From the NCBI RefSeq assembly GCF_027812955.1, contig NZ_JAPYZV010000005.1, positions 310,001 to 374,000 of the forward strand: a stretch of DNA of 64,000 nt, written 5' to 3'. This document shows positions 60,602 through 64,000 of this stretch, one piece after another. Origin of the DNA: Pedococcus sp. 5OH_020. Its GTDB lineage: Bacteria; Actinomycetota; Actinomycetes; Actinomycetales; Dermatophilaceae. The notes under the pieces were generated by a model. It was not told the DNA's origin and did no database searches. It saw only the letters and a program-made list of their open reading frames with translations. Made by a program: the position numbers and the translations under genes. Positions within the stretch are counted from its first letter, which is position 1, and every line of letters starts with the position of its first letter.

Positions 60602-60630
60602 CCCTTCCGTACCACTTTCCCTTCCGTACC
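60602..60630. repeat. Direct repeat upstream of the mau-like promoter
   Basis: CCCTTCCGTACC occurs at 60602-60613 and again at 60619-60630 (17 bp start to start), 32 bp before the -35 box at 60662. It could be a pair of activator half-sites. Confidence 0.5.
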
Positions 60631-60661
60631 TCGTGTCCTCAAGGCCCCTGACATGCGGCTG

Positions 60662-60714
60662 TTGACAGTGGCCCGGCCGCTGCCATACTCGGGAAGTCGG
60701 CGTGACATATGTCA
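60662..60714 (+). promoter_or_regulatory. Promoter and palindromic operator of the mau-like locus
   Basis: A consensus -35 TTGACA (60662-60667) and a CATACT -10 (60684-60689) are 16 bases apart. The perfect palindrome TGACATATGTCA (60703-60714) lies just downstream, where it would overlap the start of transcription. A further TGACAT half-site is at 60649-60654. The first gene starts 45 bp further on. Confidence 0.65.
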
Positions 60715-60759
60715 TGCCGCTTCGGTTGGGCTCGATGAGAGCGGGGCCGGGAGGTCCAC

Positions 60760-61293
60760 ATGGTCGACGGCGTGGTCGCGGGCATCTCTGTGGCAACCTC
60801 CGCCGTGCTGTTCCTCGCCGGACCCGGCAAGCTCACCGCGCCCACCGCCCTCGCCTCGGCGCTGACCACCACAGTCCCGTACCTGCGGCCCGGGCAGGCG
60901 CGAACGGCTGCGAGGCTGGTCGGCGTTGTCGAGTCCTGTGTCGCGGTTCTGCTCGCGACCGGCAGCCGACCGCACCTTACGGGGACCGCCCTGGCTGCCC
61001 TCGGACTGGCGGTACTGGTCCTGTCCGTAGTGGCCGGCGCTCGGGGCCTCACCGTCCCGTGCGGCTGCTTCTCCGCAGTCGACGCGACGGACCACCGCAC
61101 CCTCGGCCCGCGCACCGCGGCCTACGGTGCCGGGTTCGTCGCAGTCGGCGCCCTCCACGGTCTGGCCACCTCCACCGGGCCTGCGGACCTCCGACTCACG
61201 GCGGCTCTCACTCTCGCCCTCGCCTGCCTGCTCGCAACCCACGCAGCGCAGCTTCGCCCCCTGCTTCTCCAAGGACTGGGGAGAGGCCAATGA
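60760..61293 (+). CDS. MauE-like membrane protein
   Basis: A 177-residue protein with four or more helices (VVAGISVATSAVLFLAGPGK, ALAALGLAVLVLSVVAGARG, ALTLALACLLATHAAQL) and the MauE signature VPCGCFSAVD. MauE belongs to the DoxX/VKOR-like group needed for disulfide formation in the methylamine dehydrogenase light chain. The start follows GGGAGG. Its stop overlaps the next start (ATGA). Confidence 0.83.
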   Translation: MVDGVVAGISVATSAVLFLAGPGKLTAPTALASALTTTVPYLRPGQARTAARLVGVVESCVAVLLATGSRPHLTGTALAALGLAVLVLSVVAGARGLTVPCGCFSAVDATDHRTLGPRTAAYGAGFVAVGALHGLATSTGPADLRLTAALTLALACLLATHAAQLRPLLLQGLGRGQ

Positions 61294-61835
61294 TCGTCGA
61301 CGTCCTCATGTTCTGCCTTCTCGTGCTGCTGGTCATTGCGGTGGTGGGGCTGTTCGCCATGATGGGCGAGCTCAGCTCGAAGGTGTCCGCCTCGGTGGGC
61401 ACCGAGTCGGATGAGGTGCTCTGGCCGGCTGAGAACGCGCGCATCGGCAGGCTCACGGACTGGCCGGCCGAGATCGACGGCGTGGTGCGCGAGGGTGGCG
61501 TGGTCGTGGTCCTCAGTCCCACGTGCGGCGCCTGCCACCAGATCCTCAGCGAGACGCCCAACCACCTCTCCGACCCACTCCCGCTCGCAGTCGTGGTCGT
61601 GGCCGGTGACGAGGAGGCGGGCCGGTCCTTCGTCGAGGAGTACCCGCTGCTTGCCCGCCTGCCGGTCCACGTGGACGTGGCGGGGGGATGGCTGCGTCAG
61701 GCGGTCGGGCTCGACTCCTCCCCCGCGGTCCTGCGCGTCGAGGACGGCCATGTCCTCGAGGTCTTCAACTTCAACCGGTCCAGCGCTGTGGTCGCTTTGG
61801 CCTCGGCGTCATCCAAGGAATCGAGGAAGGCATGA
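61290..61835 (+). CDS. MauD-like membrane-anchored thioredoxin-fold protein
   Basis: A 181-residue protein. It has an N-terminal helix (VLMFCLLVLLVIAVVGLFAM) and then a thioredoxin-like domain with the redox pair in VVVLSPTCGACHQILSE, plus LPVHVDVAGGWLRQAVGLDS and SPAVLRVEDG. The fold and the neighbour match MauD, which handles disulfides of exported proteins. The start overlaps the MauE-like stop, and the stop overlaps the Cys-rich gene start, each as ATGA. Confidence 0.83.
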   Translation: MIVDVLMFCLLVLLVIAVVGLFAMMGELSSKVSASVGTESDEVLWPAENARIGRLTDWPAEIDGVVREGGVVVVLSPTCGACHQILSETPNHLSDPLPLAVVVVAGDEEAGRSFVEEYPLLARLPVHVDVAGGWLRQAVGLDSSPAVLRVEDGHVLEVFNFNRSSAVVALASASSKESRKA

Positions 61836-62137
61836 AGGAGACAGCGGTCAATGCGCGGAGCCCGAGCGGGTGGGCCAGCAGACTGGCTCGTAGGACGGTC
61901 CTCGGTGGGTTCGGGGCCACAGCCCTGACCGCCGCGAGCGCCGTCTTCGGTCGACAGGTCGCGCAGGCAAGTCCAGCGTGCTGCAACCTGGCCTACGCGC
62001 CGTCGGGCTACCAGGCGTGCATGGACGGGCGCCACTACGCCTGGACCTGCCAGTGGACCAGCGGCAGGCACTGTGTGTGCTGCGAGCGGATGCGCACCAA
62101 TGGCACGTACTGGGCCTCCGCGTACAAGTGCTCGTAA
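61832..62137 (+). CDS. Tat-exported eight-cysteine mini-protein, MauA-like
   Basis: A 101-residue precursor. A twin-arginine signal (LARRTVLGGFGATAL, Arg20-Arg21) is followed by a likely AxA site at residue 46. The mature part of about 55 residues holds eight cysteines (50, 51, 63, 73, 81, 83, 84, 100) and three tryptophans (71, 75, 94), with segments YAPSGYQACMDGRHYAWTCQ and SGRHCVCCERM. The leader and Cys density recall the methylamine dehydrogenase light chain, but that protein is about twice as long, with twelve cysteines. It is coupled by ATGA to the MauD-like gene. Role unknown; a disulfide-rich exported peptide is certain only at the sequence level. Confidence 0.8.
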   Translation: MKETAVNARSPSGWASRLARRTVLGGFGATALTAASAVFGRQVAQASPACCNLAYAPSGYQACMDGRHYAWTCQWTSGRHCVCCERMRTNGTYWASAYKCS

Positions 62138-62161
62138 TCATGAGTATGGAGGTGGAAGCTC

Positions 62162-62464
62162 ATGGCTGTCCTGCCCACTGACCGCGGGTTCGTCGAGTTC
62201 CGGCAGTCCGCCCGTCGGCCTGGCGAGCTCGAGGTACGCGTCTACGCCGACCTGGTCGACGGTGTGCCCGGCGAGCTCTTCGCCGTCTACGACTCCCTGC
62301 CGCGCGCGGCGATCCGCATGCGCGGCAAGTCGGCTCACCGCGACGGACGTTCGCTGTCCGCCTCGGTCTGCTCGGTGTTCTGGAACGAGGCGGAACGAGT
62401 TCTGGAGGTCACGCCGGTGACGGCCACGAGAGCCGGCCAGGCGCTGCTCGGTGTCACCAAGTAG
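62162..62464 (+). CDS. Uncharacterised 100-aa protein of the mau-like locus
   Basis: It starts 24 bp after the Cys-rich gene, with GGAGG at 8 bases. The sequence is strand-rich (FVEFRQSARRPGELEVRVYA, GELFAVYDSLPRAAIRMRGK, VCSVFWNEAERVLEVTPVTA) and has one cysteine, no signal and no membrane segment. I do not recognise it. Its position suggests a cytosolic accessory or chaperone for the exported peptide. Confidence 0.7.
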   Translation: MAVLPTDRGFVEFRQSARRPGELEVRVYADLVDGVPGELFAVYDSLPRAAIRMRGKSAHRDGRSLSASVCSVFWNEAERVLEVTPVTATRAGQALLGVTK

Positions 62465-62481
62465 CCCCCGGGGACGTCGCC

Positions 62482-62541
62482 GTGGCTCTCTGGATCTTTG
62501 TGGCCGGCCTCGGCGGCGTTCTCCAGCTGCTCAGCCCCTGA
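62482..62541 (+). CDS. Possible 19-aa hydrophobic micropeptide
   Basis: GTG 62482 with GGGGA about 8 bases upstream encodes MALWIFVAGLGGVLQLLSP, a single hydrophobic helix, ending at TGA 62539-62541. It fills most of the gap between two genes of the locus and is in the operon direction. It could be a real small membrane peptide or chance. Confidence 0.35.
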   Translation: MALWIFVAGLGGVLQLLSP

Positions 62542-62550
62542 GGCCGCGCC

Positions 62551-63135
62551 ATGGTCGGAGTCTCCGGTCCCCTGAACACCTACGACCGTGGCGCCGCCAC
62601 GCGTTTCCTTGCGGGGCTGGCCACGGGGGTGGCCGCGACGACCGTGGCGCTCGCCCTCATGGTGTCCCTGCTGGCCACCCTCTGGGCGAGAACGCCGACC
62701 GTCCCCCGGGTGGGCCTGGCCGTGTCGCTGCTCCTGCTCCTGGGCGCCCTCGACCTGTCGGACCGGACGCCTGAGCTGGCACGCCAGGTGCCGCAGCGGT
62801 TCGCCAGGGTCCTCGACCCCGGCGCGCGCGGCCTGTTCTGGGGTGCCGACCTGGCGACCCTCGTCTCCACCCGCAAGGCGTCCTCCCTGCTCTGGGTGGC
62901 GCTCGTTGTGGCACCGCTGGCCGGACGGCCCACGGTGGCCGTCGCGGGGATCGTCGCGGCGAACGCAGCGTTTGTGGTCGGCGTGACGCTGCAGACGAAA
63001 GTGCCTGCCGCGAGCGTGTTTCGGGGAAGGCTGGGAGCGGTCAACATCAGCGGCGACATCCGCGCCCTGCGACGTGCCACGGGCCTGCTCATCCTGCTCG
63101 GCGCCGGACTGCTGCTCGCGGGAGGGCTGCCGTGA
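62551..63135 (+). CDS. Polytopic membrane protein of the mau-like locus
   Basis: A 194-residue protein with about five helices (RFLAGLATGVAATTVALALM, VGLAVSLLLLLGALDL, SSLLWVALVVAPLAG, VAGIVAANAAFVVGVTL, GLLILLGAGLLLAGGLP). No CxxC is visible. The arrangement recalls MauE/CcdA-like proteins without their cysteines. The family is not recognised. The stop overlaps the next start (GTGA). Confidence 0.68.
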   Translation: MVGVSGPLNTYDRGAATRFLAGLATGVAATTVALALMVSLLATLWARTPTVPRVGLAVSLLLLLGALDLSDRTPELARQVPQRFARVLDPGARGLFWGADLATLVSTRKASSLLWVALVVAPLAGRPTVAVAGIVAANAAFVVGVTLQTKVPAASVFRGRLGAVNISGDIRALRRATGLLILLGAGLLLAGGLP

Positions 63136-63764
63136 CTTTGCTCCGACTCGACCCACGCCTCGGTGACCACGTCGGCGGCGTCGTCGTGGTGACGCGGTTC
63201 GACTGCCCTCACGCGTGGATGCTGCTGTGGCTCCGCTGGTACCACCGACGTGTGGCTGCGTCCGTCGCCCGGGAGAGCGAGGGGTTCATACGCGCCCTGC
63301 TGACCACCGACCGACGAACCGGTACGGCGTACAGCGTCACCCTCTGGCGCAGCCCCACGTCGCTGTACGACATGGGCCGCGTGCCCGCACACATCGATGG
63401 GGTCCGGCGCGCCGCCCGGCTCGGCATCCGCGCGAATGCCGCCGTCTTCCCGTACGTCGACCACTGGTCGAACGTGATGTTCGGGTCGCACCTCGACGTG
63501 CCATCTCCCTTGGCCGCGCAGACGCGGTCGGCCACTGACGCCCGCCGTCCCGGCGGCGACGAGGACGCCGAACAGAGGACGGAGGGGGCGCACGGTGGCA
63601 CGCCGGATGTCCACGCAGTGCGAGGAAGTGCCGGGGGTCGCTGGGATCCGCCGGAAGCGAGAGGAGAAGCACATGAGCAGAAAGAGGATTCGCCGGACCA
63701 TCGGTGCCATGACGGTGGCCGGAGTGCTGTTACTGGCGTGGGCCCCGCCGGCGCTGGCGAGTGA
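63132..63764 (+). CDS. CrtA/ABM-like protein, C-terminus doubtful
   Basis: A 210-residue frame. Residues up to about 130 are protein-like: VVVTRFDCPHAWMLLWLRWY, ESEGFIRALLTTDRRTGTAY, SVTLWRSPTSLYDMGRVPAH, which resembles the spheroidene monooxygenase-like alpha/beta barrel, some members of which bind haem. The last 70 residues are Gly/Arg/Glu-rich and overlap the next gene by 92 bp, so the true stop may be earlier through a frameshift or the tail may be disordered. Coupled to the membrane gene by GTGA. Confidence 0.6.
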   Translation: MTLLRLDPRLGDHVGGVVVVTRFDCPHAWMLLWLRWYHRRVAASVARESEGFIRALLTTDRRTGTAYSVTLWRSPTSLYDMGRVPAHIDGVRRAARLGIRANAAVFPYVDHWSNVMFGSHLDVPSPLAAQTRSATDARRPGGDEDAEQRTEGAHGGTPDVHAVRGSAGGRWDPPEARGEAHEQKEDSPDHRCHDGGRSAVTGVGPAGAGE

Positions 63765-64000
63765 CCAGAGCTGGACGGCGATCAACAGCGCGGGCCAGAC
63801 GGTGGCGACGGCGCACTTCGACGACGCGGCCAACCGGGTCTACATCACGGACACGCGGTCCGACGGCAGCAGGGGTGGTGTGGCGGCCCGAATCGACATC
63901 TGGCGGGTGGGCAACATCGGCGGAACCCACGTGAAGTGCTCGGTCGGCAGTCTCGGATCCACCAACTGCCCGCTGATCTGGGTCGAGGACACCCACCTCA
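63673..64000 (+). CDS. Secreted protein, 3' end outside window
   Basis: ATG 63673 follows GAGGAGA at 6 bases. The first 29 residues form a signal peptide (SRKRIRRTIGAMTVAGVLLL, then AWAPPALAS). The visible mature part is a strand-rich domain (DQSWTAINSAGQTVATAHFD, RVYITDTRSDG, AARIDIWRVGNIGGTHVKCS) with two cysteines (KCSV, TNCPL) likely to form a disulfide. The frame is open to the window end. Not recognised; it may be a client of the MauE/MauD-like pair. Confidence 0.75.
   Translation, partial: MSRKRIRRTIGAMTVAGVLLLAWAPPALASDQSWTAINSAGQTVATAHFDDAANRVYITDTRSDGSRGGVAARIDIWRVGNIGGTHVKCSVGSLGSTNCPLIWVEDTHL

Follow-up and report, generated by a model that had tools for sequence, protein, structure and literature searches.

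We identified a six-gene module in Pedococcus sp. 5OH_020 that we read, with a probability of roughly 0.6, as a self-contained and probably mobile pathway for a secreted mini-protein with all of its cysteines in disulfides. The same six genes (E, D, C, T, M and A) recur together across many actinobacteria, which points to a peptide family, exported and modified, that is as yet uncharacterised, rather than to a shrunken methylamine enzyme. An undescribed exported peptide system had been the core of the original prediction for this locus, and it is supported by the finding of the whole module, including a protein with a predicted ABM-type fold, in 34/34 loci. Exported disulfide peptides are often stable and bioactive. 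The module provides, in several actinobacterial genera, a concrete set of six genes with which the making of such peptides can be tested, and in it MauE/MauD-type machinery apparently serves a function beyond methylamine metabolism.

Organization and distribution of the six-gene module

All coordinates refer to the window, i.e., the whole stretch of 64,000 nt that was analysed (NZ_JAPYZV010000005.1, positions 310,001-374,000), and all six genes lie on its forward strand. Reading of the sequence confirmed that a mauE-like gene, a mauD-like gene and the gene for a 101-aa Tat-type precursor form a chain joined by ATGA overlaps (E/D and D/C): E (60760..61293, 177 aa) encodes a membrane protein of the MauE type that carries a CxC motif (PCGCF), D (61290..61835, 181 aa) a MauD-like, thioredoxin-type protein that appears to be membrane-anchored, and C (61832..62137, 101 aa) the precursor of a predicted exported disulfide peptide. 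Downstream lie T (62162..62464, 100 aa), a small conserved protein, M (62551..63135, 194 aa), a multi-pass membrane protein as judged by eye, and A (63132..63764, 210 aa), a predicted oxygenase whose start shares a GTGA overlap with the end of M. These followers had initially been left unrecognised; they exist, and the genes starting at 62162, 62551 and 63132 are conserved partners of the first three. The gene at 63674 (P0004), a secreted-looking ORF that extends past the end of the window, is not, as none of the ORFs in the 34 loci is related to it.

Families E, D, C, T, M and A were found all together in 34/34 loci examined. Thirty of these loci were retrieved with M as bait, and the set amounts to 32 distinct ones, given that L030 and L060 are the same contig and L010 is near-identical to L031. 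Because the same six families occur together in every locus, their linkage is far above chance, and the synteny of the Cys-rich gene with mauE/mauD-like genes, on which the original prediction depended, holds strongly. Strong C matches that were found without the M bait also lie in a module (G029, G032, G612, a Streptomyces plasmid, three further Micromonospora genomes, one further Actinomadura genome and a second copy in G924), and the same holds for all 32 C matches in 28 module genomes, one of these matches being placed via its coordinates; in L093, among the loci found without the M bait, E lies off the fragment. A first genome scan with C had given 274 pattern matches and zero confirmed relatives. 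The gene order is EDCMAT in 21/32 distinct loci, with seven other orders in the remaining 11, and two copies of C are present in 4/32. Individual deviations include an A gene consisting of two separate ORFs (L031) and a short M (L055).

The module is carried by Streptomyces, Micromonospora, Actinomadura, Nonomuraea, Flexivirga, Virgisporangium and others, and its spread within genera is patchy: it was found in 8/160 genomes of the genus of a Micromonospora carrier, 2/392 of that of a Streptomyces carrier and 6/65 of that of an Actinomadura carrier. One copy resides on a linear Streptomyces plasmid, and the module is probably horizontally mobile; a phage or viral origin was rejected, with M having no match in phages or viral contigs. 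SARP or LuxR/LAL regulators, which are typical of specialised metabolism, border 12/32 loci as judged by eye (8 of those 12 were checked by Pfam), and in the other 20 no SARP or LAL was seen in the two predicted ORFs closest to the module on either flank. We noticed neither a transporter nor a protease that was constant across the module loci, and a lipoprotein considered as a constant partner is present beside only 5 distinct loci. Near the Flexivirga-family copies we observed sulfur-redox genes, named by eye. Furthermore, tRNA-Sec and sel genes adjoin five module loci, which prompted us to consider selenocysteine in C; inspection by eye gave no conserved-looking reading beyond the stops, and this idea was dropped.

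The precursor peptide and its conserved partners

The leader of C ends in RLARRTVLGGFGATALTAASAVFGRQVAQA and SPACC comes next; cleavage is predicted just before SPACC and would leave a mature part of 55 residues, in which we counted exactly 8 cysteines, matching the eight in about 55 residues that had been estimated before. Cut at this site, the unmodified peptide of the window has a calculated neutral monoisotopic mass of 6203.56 Da in the reduced state and of 6195.50 Da with four disulfides. A twin arginine is found upstream of the Cys core in 39/39 C peptides, and all 39 peptides listed (36 distinct) have an even number of cysteines (8, 10 or 14). Cysteines beyond the core were gained mostly in pairs and lost once as a pair. 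In the numbering of the C alignment, C42 and C61 are jointly absent in one row, C7 and C17 co-occur in 8 rows, C15 and C52 in 4/4 and a C-terminal pair in 3/3, a co-occurrence that partly reflects kinship between the rows, the two rows with 14 cysteines giving no clear pairing. A C42-C61 disulfide (C81-C100 of the precursor) is predicted, and in relatives with 10 cysteines also C7-C17 or C15-C52. Paired, even cysteines are as for disulfides, and the best reading of the leader and cysteine pattern together is a predicted Tat-type, disulfide-rich exported peptide. Among the 36 C peptides, a tryptophan (W32) is invariant within a Y/W-x-W-x-C motif (Y30 being present in 35, with Trp in the remaining one), the next-best Trp column reaches 5/36, and CCE is found in all 36. 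Searches of C against Pfam, NCBIfam and the PDB gave no meaningful match, the best PDB hit of its profile being an unrelated DMBT1 domain (0.017); the structure model was only moderate (pLDDT 75), and a fold search with it against the PDB returned nothing at E<=0.001.

The E protein of the window belongs to the Pfam MauE family (6.2e-11; 43.1 bits, above the cut-off of 27), as does the plasmid copy at 57.6 bits; an NCBIfam search of E gave no meaningful match. A CGC motif is conserved in 32/32 family members from distinct loci. D has an N-terminal helix by eye and a CxxC within SPTCGAC, with the CxxC retained in 34/34 members of its family. The D protein of the window has zero family matches in Pfam and NCBIfam, and MauD (TIGR02661) matches 1/27 members at 0.0012, not that of the window. 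The CxxC is in line with MauD, and D is called MauD-like here. The D family further shows weak TrbB and thioredoxin-type matches, and the best PDB match of its profile is DsbF (0.0058). MauE and MauD are thought to carry out membrane thiol oxidation for MauA, and by analogy E and D would oxidise the cysteines of C outside the cell. Synteny supports the pairing of disulfide-type machinery with a Tat-type, Cys-rich exported peptide that had been proposed for this locus.

T, whose family is present in 34/34 loci, carries PTDRG near its start and has no signal peptide by eye; searches against Pfam and the PDB gave no meaningful match, and we regard it as a candidate peptide-binding helper. An alignment of 28 M proteins revealed the motifs RTPxxxRQVPQ and DLxxLxxTxK and 0-2 cysteines per protein, none of them conserved. 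Weak matches are scattered over the M family (SfLAP in 3/28, best 1e-3; DsbD in 2/28, best 0.034), and a CcdA identity was rejected after hhalign against a single CcdA-like protein gave no match. M is a candidate maturation or export partner, or a candidate self-protection protein. For A, 12/29 members have a PF13826 (Monooxy_af470-like) match at E<=1, the strongest reaching 8e-5; the window copy is not among them, and the plasmid copy scores 14.5 bits, below the cut-off of 25. A fold model made on an Actinomadura relative (L035, 40% identical; pLDDT 86) gave 85 PDB matches at E<=0.001 with Foldseek, headed by SnoaB (1.8e-6, probability 1.00), and this model places A in the ABM superfamily with a ferredoxin-like alpha-beta fold. 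Homology of A stops near residue 126, the remaining ~80 aa of the window ORF having no counterpart, and T, F, C, G, H and F are invariant in the family. A thus shares a predicted fold and a weak profile match with the ABM monooxygenases SnoaB, ActVA-Orf6 and RslO4. The substrates of known ABM monooxygenases are small polyketides or terpenoids, and ABM folds have other roles too; unlike the SnoaB-type enzymes, A is linked to the gene of a peptide, and its set of invariant residues is its own.

A proposed pathway for the exported peptide

In the pathway that we propose, C would be made carrying its Tat leader, after which A, perhaps assisted by T, would probably modify it in the cytoplasm, most plausibly at the invariant Tyr-x-Trp. 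Tat would then export C, and the leader would be cleaved. In the exported peptide, E and D would form four to seven disulfides by membrane thiol oxidation, with M acting as a membrane partner or in self-protection. The product would most likely be a released natural product, either an antagonist or a signal; the role of a bacteriocin or surface factor, which had been suggested earlier, is a possible one. That A oxidises C is probable, the sole tie between the two being gene linkage. Taken as one complete scheme, in which an ABM-type A acts on the Tyr-x-Trp of cytoplasmic C by oxidation or cross-linking, export through Tat follows and a private MauE/MauD pair adds 4-7 disulfides, the proposal is tentative, and we consider it rather unlikely to be right in all of its parts. 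To our knowledge, it would be unusual for a small natural-product peptide to leave the cell through Tat, and also for an ABM oxygenase to have a peptide as its substrate; together these features would define a class of peptide natural products. Nor do we know of an enzyme assigned to the initial hydroxylation of Trp in TTQ-like cofactors, for which ABM chemistry on C would suggest a route.

It is possible, if somewhat unlikely, that C is a secreted bacteriocin-like antimicrobial with disulfides as its sole modification, for which M would confer immunity and A and T would be chaperones or regulatory proteins. The C peptide of the window is small and basic (pI 8.5), and C varies between its cysteines (mean identity outside the eight core cysteines is 30%, against 43% in M, though T also shows 30%); the duplicated C genes, the SARP/LAL regulators at module borders and the patchy genome spread point in the same direction. 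However, this account leaves without explanation that the ABM-fold A is kept in every module.

Comparison with methylamine dehydrogenase loci and other known systems

The module has in common with the mau cluster a MauE-family protein, a CxxC thioredoxin-type partner and a Cys-rich exported target in adjacent genes. The MauA leader carries a twin arginine, as does that of C, and the C target is about half the size of MauA. The module differs from the mau cluster in the 8, 10 or 14 cysteines, single invariant Trp and lack of detectable MauA homology of C, in that neither MauB nor MauG was seen, and in the three added conserved genes M, A and T. The MauA family (PF02975) matched 0/36 C members at E<=1, and searching the PDB with the C profile returned no MauA chain at E<=10; no relationship of C to MauA is detectable, and a very distant one is possible. 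A mauB or mauG gene just past the window would have turned the locus into a normal mau locus; visual inspection of an ORF list filtered by codon-position G+C showed neither in the 11 kb that follow the window, and the normal mau locus was rejected. In line with the original prediction, no dehydrogenase partner was seen beside the locus. Genome searches gave no match for mauA, in a search without a working positive control, none for mauB, for which the control genomes and 364 genomes of the class likewise all stayed below the cut-off, so that a mauB elsewhere in the genome is possible, and none for mauG (PF03150), with the control positive in 2/14 genomes.

These comparisons bear on the idea, also raised at the outset, of a mini-quinoprotein, i.e., a reduced MauA-like subunit, or one like the gamma subunit of quinohemoprotein amine dehydrogenase (QHNDH), that carries TTQ or CTQ and acts as an exported redox protein. 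The Pfam MauE match of E and the weak MauD likeness of D would fit this idea, as would the twin-arginine leader and Cys richness of C and an invariant Trp whose first hydroxylation could come from A. TTQ, however, requires two Trp and CTQ consumes one Cys: a single Trp column is conserved at 36/36, and the even cysteine counts leave none spare for a single Cys-Trp bond. The mini-quinoprotein is disfavoured for these reasons, and with no MauA homology detected and a mauG search that was empty while its control worked, we consider it very unlikely. The QHNDH gamma subunit, which carries CTQ, is itself a small, modified, Cys-rich peptide; C differs from it in its even cysteine number and twin-arginine leader, and no radical SAM maturase or catalytic partner of the QHNDH type was noticed by eye among the module neighbours. 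Also very unlikely is a peptide secreted to handle metals or redox chemistry (akin to a metallothionein or an electron carrier, and not an antagonist or signal), which would suit the high Cys content of C and the sulfur-redox genes near Flexivirga-family copies, but is at odds with cysteines that are even and co-occur in pairs, as in disulfides, and with oxidising E and D proteins that would counteract a thiolate metal site.

Among the papers listed by a literature search, a single one appeared relevant (PMC7794033); of the others, PMC13252029 is unrelated to the peptide module, and PMC13192320 and PMC9885265 had been matched through the name of an author. In the relevant paper, decRiPPter (2020) picked out clusters of Streptomyces that contain mauE, in one case together with mauD, and precursors of at least 8 cysteines; these mauE clusters were read as RiPP-like, under a strict filter that required transporter, peptidase and regulator genes (PMC7794033). 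In the passages compared, a Tat leader, an ABM protein and counterparts of M and T go unmentioned for those clusters, and the two have in common mauE, a Cys-rich precursor and, in one decRiPPter family, mauD (PMC7794033).

A six-gene module kept together across genomes

The window (G000:C28:310001-374000) carries six plus-strand genes: E (60760-61293), a Pfam MauE protein; the MauD-like D (61290-61835) and the 101-aa twin-arginine precursor C (61832-62137), each joined to its predecessor by an ATGA overlap; and, downstream of C on the same strand, the small protein T (62162-62464), the multi-pass membrane protein M (62551-63135) and A (63132-63764), a predicted ABM-fold oxygenase sharing a GTGA overlap with M. 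By eye, a purine-rich stretch lies upstream of five of these genes. In line with the original prediction, in which the followers of C were unrecognised, neither Pfam nor NCBIfam assigned T, M or A, or D, to a family with any confidence; the values there of 0.19 for T, 0.23 for C and 0.088 for E are noise. The A reading frame runs about 80 residues beyond the conserved domain (63510-63764), a tail that overlaps the start of the gene at 63674 and is absent from the other aligned A members.

Relatives were sought with C and with M. Among 186 genomes of the same family, C gave five matches. Besides the window's own, those in G029 and G032 were convincing, and in these two genomes the other five families surround two C copies. 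Five matches were found in 396 genomes of the order, the sole real one being the window's, and 11 in 394 genomes of the class, two of them real (the window's and one in G612). Sixteen weak places from these searches (E-values of 9.5e-5 to 1e-3) were looked at again: 15 lacked all six families and the remaining one held a weak C match only. A tblastn search of plasmids with the C of G029 returned one record, Streptomyces anthocyanicus NZ_CP109276, with the six genes in a row. An earlier genome-contig scan with C as bait gave no locus; with M as bait, 30 were found. With family profiles, each built up from three to five seeds, all six families were present in all 34 loci examined (these 30, in which M is present by construction, plus L018, L030, L010 and L002), so that a Cys-rich gene beside mauE- and mauD-like genes, the synteny singled out in the original prediction, is kept in 34/34. 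In Flexivirga meconopsidis the A gene is split into two ORFs (L031:7210-7620), with the near-identical L010 copy whole; M is short at L055:8001-8429.

An enlarged C profile matched 8 of 160 genomes (three new) in the genus of a Micromonospora, 6 of 65 (one new) in that of an Actinomadura and at least 2 of 392 (none new) in that of a Streptomyces, the last a lower bound with 15 first-look candidates scored per genome. All four newly found genomes have the module, with E falling off a 3 kb fragment in one (L093). Of 32 C matches in 28 module-bearing genomes, 30 were placed in known modules by sequence, one in the L036 module by coordinates, and one in a second full module of G924. This genome, Virgisporangium aurantiacum, holds the second complete six-gene module on a different contig (L094, G924:C13:40000-54000), and its other module has two C copies.

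A peptide with even, paired cysteines and its helper proteins

In an alignment of 36 distinct mature parts (positions follow the window's peptide, with 39 subtracted from the precursor number), C11, C12, L14, C24, W32, C34, C44, C45 and E46 are invariant, and P18, Y30, C42, S57 and C61 nearly so. All 39 listed peptides have 8, 10 or 14 cysteines. Gains, and one loss, mostly involve pairs: C42 and C61 are both gone in L050; C7 is accompanied by C17 in eight rows, and in a ninth the partner of C17 is shifted by one column from C7; C15 and C52 are found together in 4/4 rows and a C-terminal pair in 3/3, and in one row a further pair is inserted. Some of the rows are closely related, and the two 14-Cys rows show no clear pairing. 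Such even, paired numbers are expected from disulfide bonding; they would be upset by one Cys-Trp cofactor bond or by an unpaired thiol. The sole invariant Trp lies within Y-x-W-x-C (W-x-W-x-C in L050). None of the 36 members matches Pfam MauA, the best PDB match of the C profile is a DMBT1 domain at 0.017, and a three-stranded model (pLDDT 75) has no significant structural neighbour in the PDB. We consider the product very probably a disulfide-bonded exported peptide.

That no MauG is seen, as originally noted, holds genome-wide: a mauG search was empty with a working positive control, and no mauB- or mauG-like ORF was seen by eye in a filtered ORF list within 11 kb past the window. Genome searches for mauA and mauB gave no match, with both controls also silent; a later mauB search in 364 genomes of the class gave none over the cut-off.

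E has a CGC motif in 32/32 members and D a CxxC in 34/34. For A, 12 of 29 members give a weak PF13826 match, and a model of the L035 relative (pLDDT 86) is closest to SnoaB, followed by ActVA-Orf6, RslO4 and other ABM proteins; T21, F23, C25, G82, H87 and F117 (window numbering) are invariant. M is Cys-poor, with invariant R-T and R-Q-V-P motifs and scattered, weak family matches only, and for T no relatives of a recognised kind were found. By analogy with MauE and MauD, E and D would oxidise the cysteines of C following export, and linkage and fold suggest that A might modify C ahead of export, a tentative assignment to which we give slightly less than even odds. We put the whole scheme at a probability of roughly 0.6; what the analysis shows is the kept linkage, the leader, the even and paired cysteines and the folds. 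Whether the product is antagonistic or signalling, or neither, is evenly balanced.

The decRiPPter report describes mauE homologues in three candidate families, one of which also has mauD; every family has a precursor with eight or more Cys, and a role in RiPP precursor modification is proposed (PMC7794033). As described, these families share with our module mauE, mauD in one case and the Cys-rich precursor, and may be the same family. The open literature searched yielded neither the six-gene definition nor the Tat leader, the paired-Cys evidence or the ABM partner.

Gene order, probable mobility and genomic setting

The order EDCMAT is found in 21 of 32 distinct loci and seven other orders in the remaining 11, so the genes stay together despite reordering. 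The M tree separates the window's copy from that of Flexivirga, though both belong to the same family by the taxonomic grouping used; Flexivirga clusters with Streptomycetaceae (92/77), and the window's own placement is weak (69/84), next to a very long branch. With 12 of 25 inner branches open, these groupings make horizontal movement of the module likely, not proven; the plasmid copy and recombinase-like neighbours in G029 (by eye) agree with it. The G029 contig (G029:C4, 1-24662, with L010 and L011) is 24.7 kb long and carries, besides the module, three consecutive tyrosine-recombinase-like ORFs and rhodanese-, SQR-, DsbA- and CcdA-like sulfur-redox genes (these neighbours named by eye). 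Its ends are mutual inverted repeats (59/60 outer bases): either the contig is a mobile element or the assembly broke off at a repeat.

In all five Streptomycetaceae loci, a tRNA-Sec gene (L018:13670-13764, L032:9390-9484, L033:9399-9491, L039:9317-9412, L043:9352-9447), its 3' end toward the module, and then a selD-like gene lie directly downstream; in the one plasmid-borne locus of the five, selA and selB come next. By eye, no in-frame extension beyond the module stops is conserved. Perhaps the module moves jointly with the Sec island, or perhaps the tRNA gene serves as an insertion site.

A lipoprotein-like family (..KILW..PGCW..) adjoins the module in five distinct loci (L010:4537-5127, equivalent to L031:5024-5614; L032:5619-6482; L047:8934-9467; L051:8934-9473; L060:9220-9822). 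Two members had no match in Pfam, and the family is a candidate receptor or self-protection protein. SARP or LuxR/LAL regulators adjoin 12 of 32 loci by eye, and all eight of the 12 submitted to Pfam were upheld. On the minus strand of L041 (1976-6367), a 1464-aa ORF fuses a SARP-type regulator (BTAD, NB-ARC, TPR) to FAD-binding and D-arabinono-lactone oxidase domains, possibly an assembly effect, the record being a MAG.
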